NCBI GenBank assembly: GCA_020353355.1
Contig: CP070694.1
Span: 3,756,322-3,790,341 of the forward strand
From: Desulfobacterales bacterium
GTDB taxonomy: Bacteria > Desulfobacterota > Desulfobacteria > Desulfobacterales > JAHEIW01
DNA: 34,020 nucleotides
Direction of reading: 5' to 3'
Below are positions 21,723 to 26,221 of the stretch, piece by piece. How positions within the stretch are numbered: position 1 is the first letter of the stretch; each line of letters starts with the position of its first letter. Below the pieces are notes generated by a model. It did not search any database. It saw only the letters and a list, made by a program, of their open reading frames with translations, and was not told where the DNA came from. Made by a program: the position numbers and the translations under genes.

Positions 21723-22076
21723 ATGACACTAGAAGAAAAAAGAAAGCATGCAAGAATCAATTCACTGAATTTGTCCTATATTTGTCTTGACGAAAAAAAC
21801 AAAAAAATCAAACAGGGAATGGGAAGAACATTGAACGTTTCCGAATCCGGTATTCTTTTAGAGACTCATTTTCCGATTGACACCGACCATATTGTGTTAC
21901 TAACTATCGGATTGGAAGAAGATATCGTTGATATCAAAGGCAAACCCGTTCACTCCAAAACAAACGCCCAAGGATTGTATGAGGTGGGCATCCAGTTTAT
22001 GGGACATGATGAAGCGACAAATAAGATCCTGAAAAAATTTATAAACACCGTTAACCAAAAGAAGCGACCAAAATGA
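21723..22076 (+). CDS. PilZ-domain (cyclic di-GMP-binding) protein
   Basis: This 117-residue stand-alone PilZ domain has both c-di-GMP contacts. The RxxxR motif is Arg7-Lys-His-Ala-Arg11 and the (D/N)xSxxG motif is Asn38-Val-Ser40-Glu-Ser-Gly43, followed by the beta-barrel strands [30 protein letters not shown] and YEVGIQFMG. It should therefore be a functional c-di-GMP receptor. It follows the DUF4388/cNMP-fold gene by 47 bases. Its stop overlaps the purC start (ATGA at 22073-22076), so purC is translationally coupled to a signalling gene. The ribosome binding site before ATG 21723 is weak. Confidence 0.92.
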
Positions 22077-22969
22077 ATATGCCGATTAGAGAAACCGATT
22101 TTCCAGAATTGAAGTTATTAAAAAGGGGTAAAGTCAGAGATATGTATGATCTTGGCGATAGCCTCTTAATGGTTGCAACCGATCGACTTTCCGCATTTGA
22201 CGTGGTTATGCCTGATCCTATACCGGACAAAGGCATCATCTTGACCCAGATTTCCTTGTTCTGGTTTGAGATTATGGAGTCGCTTGTACCCAATCATGTC
22301 ATCTTCAGCAATGTGGACGAGTTTCCCGCGATTTGTCAGCCTTACGCAGATGTTCTGCGGGGCAGAAGCATTATTATTAAAAAAACCGAACCGCTACCGG
22401 TGGAATGTGTTGTCAGAGGTTACCTATCCGGGTCGGGCTGGAAATCCTATCAAGAATCCGGAAGCGTCTGTGGTATTCGATTGCCGAAAGGTTTGCAAGA
22501 ATCCGACAGGCTGCCGGAGCCCATTTTCACACCAGCAACCAAAGCAGAACTTGGCGACCATGATATTAATATTGATTTTGAAGAAATGATCAAGATCATC
22601 GGTTCCGAGCGGGCCCAAAAACTCAAGGCGCTCAGCCTTGAAATTTATAAAGCGGGGGCGGAATTAGCAGCTGGACGGGGCATTATTATTGCGGATACCA
22701 AATTTGAGTTCGGCTTGATCGATGATGAGGTTATTTTGATTGATGAAATCCTCACTCCCGATTCTTCACGGTTTTGGCCAAAGGAGACGTATTCACCCGG
22801 TGGTGCTCAAAAAAGCTTTGATAAACAGTACGTCAGAGATCATCTGAGTACATTAGTCTGGGACAAAACACCACCGGGACCATCGTTGCCTGAGGGTGTG
22901 ATTCTAAAAACGCGCCAAAAATATTTGGACGCATTAACCCAGCTTACCGGCAAAAGCTACGGTTTGTAA
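22073..22969 (+). CDS. purC: Phosphoribosylaminoimidazole-succinocarboxamide synthase PurC
   Basis: PurC joins aspartate to CAIR in purine synthesis. The 298 residues correspond to the longer (yeast ADE1-like) type rather than the 237-residue E. coli type. Signatures are [27 protein letters not shown] at the N-terminus (ATP loop), [47 protein letters not shown] and [15 protein letters not shown] near the C-terminus. ATG 22073 overlaps the PilZ stop; ATG 22079 two codons in is possible. No other purine genes are visible, so it is an isolated pathway gene. Confidence 0.97.
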
Positions 22970-23051: not shown

Positions 23052-24008
23052 TTGAACGATATTGAAAACATTCAGCTGTCTGCTGTTAAGTTAGAAGATA
23101 ACACATACCGAATTACCACCAAGGCCAAGGTCGATGATCTTGCCGCATCGATTCAACAGATCGGTTTAATCCATCCCCCCTTGATAAAGCAAACCGCCTC
23201 AGCCGGTTATGTTATCGTTAGCGGTTTTCGACGGATCGCCGCATGTATGTATCTGGGCTGGAAGGAGATTCCAACCCGGGTATTGGATGCAGACATCGAC
23301 GATGCCCGGTGTGTATCCTACGCCATCGCCGATAATGCACTGCAGCGACCGTTGAATCTGATTGAAATATCCCGATCCATCGCTTTACTGTCCACCGTGA
23401 TCACGGATGATGATGCGTTGGCTGAGACGGCATCGAAATTGGGTTTACCTGCGGATCCCGGTCTGAATCGAAAAATTAAGAAAATATGCGATCTTGCAAC
23501 ACCAATCCAAGACGGTATTCTCGCAAATACGATCTCATTGGCCATGGCCTTAGAGCTTGCTAAGTTTGACGCCAATATTGGGGTGGCGTTCGCCAAGATT
23601 TTTGCGCAGCTGAAAATCGGATTAAACAAACAACGGGAACTGATCGTGTTGTTAGATGAAATAGCCCATCGGGAAAATACCACTATCGAGAACCTGCTGA
23701 ATGAAAAAGACATCAGACAGATATTGGATGACGATAATCTTGATCGCGCTCAACAGCGACAACGCATTCGAGAGTATCTCACGCAACGGCGTTTTCCGAC
23801 GATATCCCGGACTCAACATGAATTTAAGAAACAAATCAAAAACTTAGAGCTTGACCATCGAATGGCCCTCGTGCCACCAAAAGATTTTGAAGGTTCAAGC
23901 TATACTCTGCGGTTGAGCTTTTCGGGCGTATCGGAGCTTGAAGAGCTTCAAGGCAAACTGGACAGAATAATCCAAAGTAAGGGTCTTGCAAAATTCTTAT
24001 CCAAGTAG
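23052..24008 (+). CDS. ParB/Spo0J N-terminal-domain protein
   Basis: This 318-residue protein has a ParB-like N-terminal domain: VDDLAASIQQIGLIHPPLIK (about 28-47), GYVIVSGFRRIAACMYLGW with SGFRR in place of the GERR box, then IPTRVLD and NALQRPLNLIEISRSIALL. The middle has a helical, HTH-like segment (ASKLGLPADPGLNRKIKKIC, then ISLAMALELAKF). The C-terminal part is helical with basic patches and does not look like a typical ParB dimerisation tail. The start is TTG 23052, since no ATG or GTG lies upstream in frame or near the domain edge. No ParA ATPase is adjacent, so it is unlikely to be the chromosome-partition ParB. It is followed after 167 bases by an SPL-like radical SAM gene on the same strand. 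Confidence 0.8.
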   Translation: MNDIENIQLSAVKLEDNTYRITTKAKVDDLAASIQQIGLIHPPLIKQTASAGYVIVSGFRRIAACMYLGWKEIPTRVLDADIDDARCVSYAIADNALQRPLNLIEISRSIALLSTVITDDDALAETASKLGLPADPGLNRKIKKICDLATPIQDGILANTISLAMALELAKFDANIGVAFAKIFAQLKIGLNKQRELIVLLDEIAHRENTTIENLLNEKDIRQILDDDNLDRAQQRQRIREYLTQRRFPTISRTQHEFKKQIKNLELDHRMALVPPKDFEGSSYTLRLSFSGVSELEELQGKLDRIIQSKGLAKFLSK

Positions 24009-24079
24009 CTTTTAAAGACACGAACTATACAGAACGACATAAATCATTGCGCATACATACGCAGCGTTCTGCATGTTTG

Positions 24080-24096
24080 AAACTATGCGATAGTTT
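24080..24096 (+). terminator. Possible weak hairpin after the ParB-like gene
   Basis: AAACTAT-GCG-ATAGTTT forms a 7-base stem with a 3-base loop, immediately followed by T-AAAA rather than a long T tract. The flanks TTTGAA and TTCAAA extend the symmetry loosely. It is A+T-rich and weak as a terminator; it may be an operator-like palindrome instead. Confidence 0.3.
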
Positions 24097-24175
24097 TAAA
24101 ATCAATGATTCAAAGGGCGAATACGCAATTTATTATGACGCTGTGTATAAATTGAAGCATGGAAGTTAAACCGCT

Positions 24176-25291
24176 GTGGCGATCACGAAACTTTACATCG
24201 ATCAACGTGTTCAAGATTTTCCAGAAACCTTATCGATTCAATCCCGTCTAAATTTACCTGCCACCGTTGTAACGAATTGCCAAGATGTATTTGATTATGT
24301 TTTGTCTTCTAAAGATCCGATTCTAAAAGCAAAACAAACTCTTTTGCTTACCTGTAACAACGGTGCATTTATAAAAAATTGCCCTGGAACACGTTGTTAT
24401 ACCTGTTGTGATTATAAAATTTTACATATCGGCACGTTTTGTCATTTGGACTGTACCTATTGTATTTTGCAGTCTTATTTTCATCCACCCGTGCTTCAAT
24501 ATTTCGTCAATCACCAACACCTATTGGCGCAGATGAAAAATTTGTTTGCTCAACAGCAAATCACGAGAATCGGTACCGGTGAGTTTACCGACAGCATGAT
24601 CTGGGAGTTATGGACCGATTTATCGAGTCTTCTCGTACCCGCCTTCGCAGATCAACAGTATGCTACCCTAGAATTGAAAACAAAAACAACTGCCATTGAG
24701 GGATTGAAATCTCTTCGCCACAACCACAAGACAATTGCTGCCTGGTCGTTGAATACCCATCGGGTGATTACCCGCGAGGAACACTCGTCGGCATCACTGA
24801 CAGCGCGGCTTAACGCAGCGGCAAAATGTGCCTCATGGGGATATCCACTGGCTTTTCACTTTGATCCCATGGTTATTTATGAGGGGTGTGAAAAAGAATA
24901 TAAGCAGGTTGTTCAGCAATTATTTTCGACAGTGGACCCTGGCCGCATCGTTTGGATCAGTCTTGGCACCTTGCGATTTATGCCAGCGTTAAAAAAGATC
25001 ATCCAGAAACGTTTCCCGGAATCCAATATCATTTATGGCGAATTTATCACCGGCTTAGATGGAAAAATGCGCTATTTCAAACCGTCGCGTATCGAACTAT
25101 ATCGCAGCATGGTTTCGCGGATAAGAGAGCTTGCGCCCCATGTATGCATCTATTTGTGTATGGAAGATAACGACGTTTGGAAGGAATCTTTAGGGTTTAT
25201 TCCTGATGACTATGGCGGTTTGCCGAGAATGCTGGATGAGCGTGCGATTCAGCATTGCCAGCTAGATCCGAAAGGACTGATAGGGAAATGA
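24176..25291 (+). CDS. SPL-family radical SAM protein (spore photoproduct lyase-like)
   Basis: This 371-residue protein of the spore photoproduct lyase family belongs to the radical SAM superfamily. The cluster-binding motif is Cys89-x3-Cys93-x2-Cys96 (CHLDCTYC), preceded by CPGTRCYTCCDYKILHIGTF, typical of the non-spore-former SPL-like group. Downstream, IGTGEFTDSMIWE, LELKTKT, AAWSLNTHRVI and FHFDPMVIYEGCE follow the partial TIM-barrel strands. True SPL repairs the thymine dimer 5-thyminyl-5,6-dihydrothymine; whether this one does is not known. No sporulation gene is present. It is encoded by GTG 24176 with GGAAG upstream, just after a ParB-like gene, and the pairing suggests a joint role in DNA metabolism. 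The family is confident, the substrate is not. Confidence 0.88.
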   Translation: MAITKLYIDQRVQDFPETLSIQSRLNLPATVVTNCQDVFDYVLSSKDPILKAKQTLLLTCNNGAFIKNCPGTRCYTCCDYKILHIGTFCHLDCTYCILQSYFHPPVLQYFVNHQHLLAQMKNLFAQQQITRIGTGEFTDSMIWELWTDLSSLLVPAFADQQYATLELKTKTTAIEGLKSLRHNHKTIAAWSLNTHRVITREEHSSASLTARLNAAAKCASWGYPLAFHFDPMVIYEGCEKEYKQVVQQLFSTVDPGRIVWISLGTLRFMPALKKIIQKRFPESNIIYGEFITGLDGKMRYFKPSRIELYRSMVSRIRELAPHVCIYLCMEDNDVWKESLGFIPDDYGGLPRMLDERAIQHCQLDPKGLIGK

Positions 25292-25383: not shown

Positions 25384-25512
25384 GGAACATCGAAAATCGA
25401 ACTTTGAACGTCCAACATCGAATAATGTATTCTGCAGTTTGTTTTAAATAGATAAAGCGCAGCGCCATCAATATTGGACGTTCGATTTTGAACGTTCGAT
25501 GTTCGACGTTCA
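25384..25512. repeat. Inverted-word repeat (family F, GAACATCGAA / TTCGATGTTC)
   Basis: The left arm (25384-25422) carries GGAACATCGAA, AAATCGAA, TTTGAACGTCCAACATCGAA. The right arm (25473-25512) carries the complements: TTGGACGTTCGATTTTGAAC, then GTTCGATGTTCGACGTTC. The words are present in both arms but in permuted order. The spacer is about 50 bases. Confidence 0.82.
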
Positions 25513-25576
25513 TTCTGTTAACTGTTCCGGCCAGGCGGAGTTTCATACGAGATGTCAGGTGTCAGCGGGGATTGTT

Positions 25577-26221
25577 ATGAGGAGACGGGTGCTCATCTAT
25601 ATTCTTATCTGGTGTTGTTATCAATTCTACACCCAAGAATTATTGGCGCAAACATGGCATCATGTCAAATGGGTAGATGACGGAGATACGATCGTTTTGC
25701 ACGATGGCAGACAGGTGCGCTATATCGGCATGAATGCGCCTGAAATCGAACATGAAGATCGCAAGGCCGAACCTTTTGGGCACAAGGCCAGAGCATTTAA
25801 CAAAAAATTAGTACATCAACAAAAAGTCCGCCTGGAATTTGATGAGGAACAGCATGATCAGTACGGCCGATGGTTGGCATATGTTTTTCTAAAGGATGGC
25901 ACGTTGGTAAATGCGAGCCTGGTTGCGCAGGGGTATGCCTTTTATTTATATCGCAGCCCAAATCTTAAATATCATTCAATTTTGCTAACATCACAACGGG
26001 AAGCGATGTCGCAAGGGAAGGGGATTTGGCATAATTGGCGAGAACAAAACGCAACCTATATCGGAAATAAACACTCCCGGCGCTTCCATCTACAAAACTG
26101 CCCATTTGCGAAAAAAATAGGCACGCGAAACAGGATCGTCTTCTCGAAAAAATGGGATGGATTTTGGGCCGGGTACGCACCGGCAAAAACATGCGTCAGG
26201 CAATATTGGAGCTACGAATAA
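25577..26221 (+). CDS. Secreted thermonuclease-type nuclease (SNase) with C-terminal metal-binding-like domain
   Basis: This 214-residue protein starts with a signal-peptide-like segment (MRRRVLIYILIWCCYQFY, then a possible cleavage near LLAQ), so it is probably exported. The staphylococcal nuclease domain follows: WVDDGDTIVLHDGRQVRYIG with the calcium Asp and catalytic Arg, NAPEIEHE with the catalytic Glu, QYGRWLAYVF with the second catalytic Arg, then VNASLVAQGYAFYL. The last 50 residues (YIGNKHSRRFHLQNCPFAKK, IVFSKKWDGFWAGYAPAKTC) form a module with two Cys and one His that resembles the Ada-type metal-binding domain often fused to SNase. ATG 25577 is chosen over ATG 25499 because the latter lies in a repeat and would hide the signal peptide. 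It converges on the EF-G gene. Confidence 0.88.
   Translation: MRRRVLIYILIWCCYQFYTQELLAQTWHHVKWVDDGDTIVLHDGRQVRYIGMNAPEIEHEDRKAEPFGHKARAFNKKLVHQQKVRLEFDEEQHDQYGRWLAYVFLKDGTLVNASLVAQGYAFYLYRSPNLKYHSILLTSQREAMSQGKGIWHNWREQNATYIGNKHSRRFHLQNCPFAKKIGTRNRIVFSKKWDGFWAGYAPAKTCVRQYWSYE

Follow-up and report, generated by a model that had tools for sequence, protein, structure and literature searches.

The substrate of spore photoproduct lyase (SPL) is thymine in DNA, and DNA is likewise the target of ParB proteins. In true SPL, the H-donor Cys is essential in vivo and the radical relay includes a Tyr (PMC3742179). SplB-like radical SAM enzymes also stand beside a DNA-associated partner in the SRAP/ImuB-C operons (PMC3765255). 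The ParB-CTPase fold is found in the ParB, Noc and KorB clamps and in orphan proteins without a ParA partner; its Box II is defined as GxxR, and its nucleotide specificity cannot be predicted from sequence (PMC12704722). The main text of that ParB-fold survey makes no mention of radical SAM or photoproduct. No description of a ParB–SPL pair, or of a trio with a GT2 glycosyltransferase, was found in the open-access papers searched, and subscription work could hold one. The component folds are known; the pair and the addition of GT2 appear undescribed.

Here, such a pair was analysed in a Desulfobacterales genome (single contig, 5.3 Mb; completeness estimated at 85%), in which the ParB-like and SPL-like proteins each occur as a single copy. 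Within the window, that is, the whole stretch of 34,020 nucleotides analysed, the two reading frames lie in tandem on one strand with a gap of 167 bp. The pair and its flanking genes are as follows.

22073..22969, + strand: purC, directly before the ParB-like gene throughout Desulfobacterales
23052..24008, + strand: ParB-like gene, 318 aa, TTG start; Pfam ParB_N, 7e-11
24176..25291, + strand: SPL-fold radical SAM gene, 371 aa, GTG start; Pfam SPL, 8e-27
25499..26221, + strand: SNase-fold nuclease gene, downstream of SPL and near it in 51 of 81 Desulfobacterales loci

The preliminary description had placed the second protein in the SPL family, and both the Pfam match and the predicted structure agreed with this assignment: the AF2 model (pLDDT 94.8) matched 4fhf over its full length, with TM values of 0.79/0.86. 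Like SplB (PDB 4FHC, 4FHF), the enzyme has the full-length fold, the CX3CX2C site and a Tyr preceding the last cluster Cys, and its Lys170 and Ser191 align with conserved SPL residues. In contrast to SplB, it carries Glu136, Ile97 and four extra invariant Cys, has a ParB-like partner and relatives without SASPs, and scores far below the cut-off of the TIGR04070 equivalog model (114 bits vs. 400; 134 bits for L141). The positions concerned, with conservation taken from an alignment of 58 SPL-like sequences, are listed below.

24380..24409, + strand: extra Cys motif CPGTRCYTCC, residues 69-78; C69, C77 and C78 invariant
24440..24463, + strand: radical SAM CX3CX2C, C89, C93 and C96; cluster Cys invariant
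24572..24595, + strand: GTGEFTDS with Glu136, aligned with the H-donor Cys140 (Gt)/141 (Bs)
25157..25159, + strand: Cys328 in YxCME, the fourth extra invariant Cys

In an alignment to 4rh0, true SPL lacked the CPGTRCYTCC motif, bar one Cys at a different spacing. The pattern of invariant residues suggests a putative auxiliary metal cluster on Cys 69, 77, 78 and 328. Glu136 was invariant in all 58 aligned sequences, and Ile97, next after C96, stands where SPL has the relay Tyr98 (Gt)/Y99 (Bs); hence, neither the catalytic H-donor Cys nor the relay Tyr of SPL is present. Moreover, SASP (PF00269) was found in 0 of 40 relatives, with a positive B. subtilis control, in line with the non-sporulation context put forward earlier. 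Because the H-donor Cys is replaced by Glu, the relay Tyr is replaced by Ile and the relatives lack SASPs, UV or photoproduct repair by this enzyme is not supported. In short, this radical-SAM protein combines the SPL fold with an altered active site.

A ParB-like clamp might still scan DNA and deliver the enzyme to reverse the photoproduct or another, non-photochemical thymine lesion through a changed H-atom relay. The full-length SPL fold and the ParB fold of the partner fit such a role, a new conserved Cys could substitute for the H donor, and SOS operons of other bacteria hold SplB-like enzymes (PMC3765255). We consider it unlikely, however, since an invariant Glu and an Ile occupy two positions that are mechanistic in SPL (PMC3742179), the 40 relatives lack SASPs, the neighbouring repair genes are lineage-specific, and a glycosyltransferase partner would be unexpected. 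The SRAP/ImuB-C operons likewise differ from this locus in having another partner family and an SOS context, which was not found here (PMC3765255).

The ParB-like protein comprises an N-terminal ParB-CTPase fold, a degenerate HTH region and a distinct C-terminal domain. ParB_N was the sole Pfam family matched, and all NCBIfam ParB models scored below their cut-offs (TIGR00180, 44 bits vs. 58.45). Its AF2 model (pLDDT 96.6) had Noc, KorB and ParB as its top predicted-fold matches in the PDB, and free serine kinase and SbnI were also among the matches. Furthermore, the family profile aligned with Noc (E 6e-26) over profile residues 29-211, which span the nucleotide-binding boxes and the HTH region. 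The elements below were compared across 75 relatives.

23163..23177, + strand: Box I (C-motif) loop G38-LIHP; G38 invariant in the 75 relatives
23223..23234, + strand: Box II (P-motif GxxR), GFRR, G58-R61; G58 and R61 invariant in the 75 relatives
23334..23366, + strand: Box III equivalent NALQRPLNLIE, N95-E105, aligned with ENLQREELTPIE of Noc
23664..24005, + strand: SPL-associated C-terminal domain, residues 205-318 (P249; FEG with E280)

The protein thus has the ParB_N fold, Box I and GxxR of the ParB-CTPase fold, as do the ParB, Noc and KorB clamps and the orphan proteins (PMC12704722), together with a Box III-like DNxxxRxxNxxE. This last element is ENxxR-like, with N95, R99, N102 and E105 at least 90% conserved (n = 75), and the residue preceding N95 is Asp, not Glu. 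The motifs SGFRR, CX3CX2C and CPGTRCYTCC were present in the translated reading frames as first reported. SGFRR had been taken to replace the GERR box; the letters were confirmed, but the P-motif is not lost, as GxxR is kept. Given the definition of Box II as GxxR and the invariance of G58 and R61 in 75 relatives, GFRR is, judged from the alignment, a normal GxxR variant.

As originally noted, the window contains no parA, a feature shared with the orphan ParB-CTPase-fold proteins (PMC12704722). A canonical chromosomal ParB was not found in the assembly either, where the only TIGR00180 hit was the orphan, below cut-off; the completeness of 85% may explain this. In contrast to ParB, Noc and KorB, the ParB-like protein has a degenerate HTH, a C-terminal domain of its own, a near-obligate radical-SAM partner and an N-domain that is lost in some lineages. 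Pfam HTH_ParB (PF17762) was recognised in 9 of 75 members, and the Noc alignment runs through this region. No palindromic site common to the regions upstream of the ParB-like gene was found, and palindromic words were rare there. Since the HTH is degenerate and a common upstream site is lacking, sequence-specific DNA binding by the ParB-like protein is doubtful. A parS-like upstream site was rejected, as the 10-mers in common among Desulfobacterales look like purC coding sequence.

Residues 205-318 matched no Pfam family, and neither did a set of short partners of ~170-190 aa, which consist of the C-terminal domain alone and lie directly upstream of SPL at six loci (L185, L187, L188, L189, L194 and L200). 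Locus L193 may hold a seventh, which a contig end may have clipped. The nucleotide-binding N-domain is therefore absent, and thus dispensable, in some lineages. Because these lineages retain only the C-terminal domain beside SPL, the sequence comparison points to this domain as the part bound most tightly to the enzyme, with a putative docking role. These data also bear on a regulatory explanation, in which the ParB-like protein would bind close to the operon that encodes it and set the expression of the enzyme through transcription or dosage. Such a role would suit the operon position and has precedents in the ParB relatives KorB and VirB, which control transcription; it is nevertheless very unlikely, considering that the upstream regions share no conserved palindromic site, that the pair is retained when unlinked, and that the C-terminal domain alone is enough in some lineages.

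The association of the two proteins was evaluated in 297 genomes of the phylum, using an alignment of the ParB C-terminal domain as the query for partners. Both proteins were present in 164 genomes and neither in 112, with SPL only in 18 and ParB only in 3. All three ParB-only cases fall at contig ends where the SPL gene would be, and in 10 of the 18 SPL-only genomes the match is a weak one to another SPL family. Among 116 relatives from the order, the SPL-like protein was matched in 107 and the ParB-like protein in an almost equal number. The order-level tally, which was read from match tables and excludes distant SPL families and ordinary ParBs, gave 99 genomes with both, 11 with neither, 4 with SPL only and 2 with ParB only (Fisher 1e-10; the co-occurrence statistics ignore phylogenetic kinship). 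Joint loss was seen in several families: the pair is gone from G022, G026 and G039 and kept by their family mates G086, G087 and G095.

Gene order was similarly consistent. Where the pair could be placed, SPL was the next gene after ParB on the same strand in 83 of 115 cases, and the remaining 32 were unlinked with both genes retained. In 40 fetched loci, the reading frames overlapped or lay within 20 bp of each other in 31, with first-possible starts inflating some of the overlaps, and the pair was found in many unrelated gene contexts. Inspection of long open frames revealed none that joined two of the ParB, SPL and GT2 domains.

Taken together, the co-occurrence, the same-strand adjacency, the retention of both genes when unlinked and the order kept across unrelated contexts indicate that the ParB-like and SPL-like proteins are almost certainly functional partners. 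The pairing proposed from this one genome is decisively not confined to it, as both the neighbourhood survey and the 297-genome comparison showed. Chance is excluded by the invariance of C69, C77 and C78 (n = 58) and by the conservation of the pair across the phylum. A long syntenic block holds both genes in Desulfobacterales, so that slow genome rearrangement might merely have kept two unrelated genes together; this is extremely improbable, given the overlapping genes in unrelated contexts and the co-retention and co-loss of the pair. Linkage by synteny alone was accordingly rejected, on the grounds of the unrelated contexts and the unlinked yet co-retained pairs.

The preliminary description had read the nearby RecBCD, UvrBC and ExoVII genes as a functional context. 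RecC, RecB, RecD, UvrB, UvrC and XseA were indeed confirmed inside the window, but the interpretation did not hold. The UvrBC genes are there because of a Desulfobacterales syntenic block, uvrB-uvrC-mdh...purC-ParB-SPL-SNase, in which other genes sometimes stand between ParB and SPL; in other lineages, the pair lies beside GT2, purC, nadB, clpX/lon and many unrelated genes. The DNA-repair genes near the pair are thus lineage-specific synteny, and a DNA-repair island was rejected since the neighbours differ from lineage to lineage. The position of purC next to the ParB-like gene is probably synteny as well, placing purC outside the system; where SPL is unlinked, purC is still found beside ParB in one genome or more (L207). 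The SNase-fold nuclease is at most a candidate member of the system. SNase relatives also occur near the pair outside the order (L145, L156).

In many Desulfobacterales, a TetR regulator, an acetyl-CoA synthetase, an MFS transporter or a CBS/cNMP protein is inserted between the ParB-like and SPL genes, a gap that resembles an insertion hot spot (L062, L064, L074, L136 and others). The SPL-like protein matched none of the PADLOC defence models, and the ParB-like protein showed only a weak, partial match, limited to residues 22-97, to a model of a type II MTase, which does not class it as a defence protein. Searches of plasmids, phages and viral contigs gave no close relative, and a phage or plasmid origin was rejected.

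In at least 44 genomes from 15 families, the gene immediately before the ParB-like one encodes a GT2 of a single subfamily, in the order GT2–ParB–SPL where SPL could be placed; five further genomes, whose ParB-like gene is elsewhere, have this GT2 immediately before SPL. Orthologs occur about once per genome and were found in 170 of the 297 genomes, of which 155 contain all three proteins; 108 genomes contain none of the three. The catalytic domain matched Pfam at 4e-40, and the nearest NCBIfam models were polysaccharide enzymes, all far below cut-off. The protein has the GT2 catalytic domain of TuaG and EpsE, but it forms an orthologous subfamily of its own, marked by a KRGGHPDQLSxxxWGxDRFR tail and present roughly once in each genome, and is contiguous with ParB–SPL in many families. 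It is probably the third protein of the system. Its link is looser than that between ParB and SPL: GT2 is retained where the pair is lost (G022, G026, G039), and the pair is retained without GT2 in G054 and G102. In the host genome, the single-copy ortholog lies outside the window and unlinked to the pair (C1:583170-583985, L222), where it adjoins a large gene resembling an HrpA-type helicase. Unlinked GT2 loci had no constant additional neighbours.

An alternative is a glycan, cofactor or small-molecule pathway, in which a sugar or nucleotide sugar would be rearranged by the radical SAM enzyme and passed on by GT2, and the ParB/Srx-fold protein would serve as an NTP-binding switch or a kinase, not as a DNA clamp. 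The contiguity of GT2 with the pair in 44 genomes agrees with this explanation, as do the degenerate HTH and a fold that covers free serine kinase and SbnI and has known ATP and GTP binders (PMC12704722). On the other hand, both partners have DNA-acting proteins as their nearest homologues, and no further recurring glycan genes were found around the trio. We regard this pathway as possible, but rather unlikely.

Our best guess, an unproven one, is nucleic-acid base modification: the two folds come from families that suggest nucleic acid, the altered active site leads away from photoproduct reversal, and GT2 suggests that a sugar is added. In such a two-protein, or with GT2 probably three-protein, system, the C-terminal domain of the ParB-like protein would dock the radical-SAM enzyme, and the N-terminal nucleotide-binding clamp, where present, would switch the complex or load it on nucleic acid. 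The SPL-like enzyme would then modify a base via a 5'-deoxyadenosyl radical, and GT2 may attach a sugar. We assign this mechanism as a whole a probability of roughly 0.37, resting on homology, predicted fold, motif changes, co-occurrence, operon structure and the loss of the N-domain alone in some lineages. A more specific version, anaerobic hypermodification, is itself quite doubtful; here, the SPL-type enzyme would activate the base, the orphan ParB-fold protein would dock or load it, and the dedicated GT2 would glycosylate the product. By analogy, such a system, widespread in a bacterial phylum, might parallel the logic of base J synthesis without needing oxygen; we hold that comparison to be just as doubtful.

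As the catalytic residues of photoproduct repair are missing, the pair seems to be an anaerobic enzyme system not described before, and not a UV-repair system. It is a single-copy pair in most Desulfobacterales and in more than half of the sampled phylum, and no function was assigned to it in the literature found. Here, an SPL fold is in use without the photoproduct-repair residues, an orphan ParB is tied to one enzyme family, and a glycosyltransferase is added; what SPL-like proteins do in anaerobes that form no spores thereby becomes a testable question.

Two further arrangements of SPL-family genes were observed. At L190, an SPL gene without a detected ParB partner is flanked by a THEP1-type NTPase gene and a gene for a ThiI/NFACT-R-like protein; L191, also without a detected partner, has a similar layout. 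In addition, six genomes, four of which lack the ParB–SPL pair, encode a second, more distant SPL-family protein of ~30% identity in open frames of ~400-490 aa (G022:C49:52673, G026:C105:3313, G039:C2:304171, G056:C17:342, G062:C62:5055 and G071:C15:4089).
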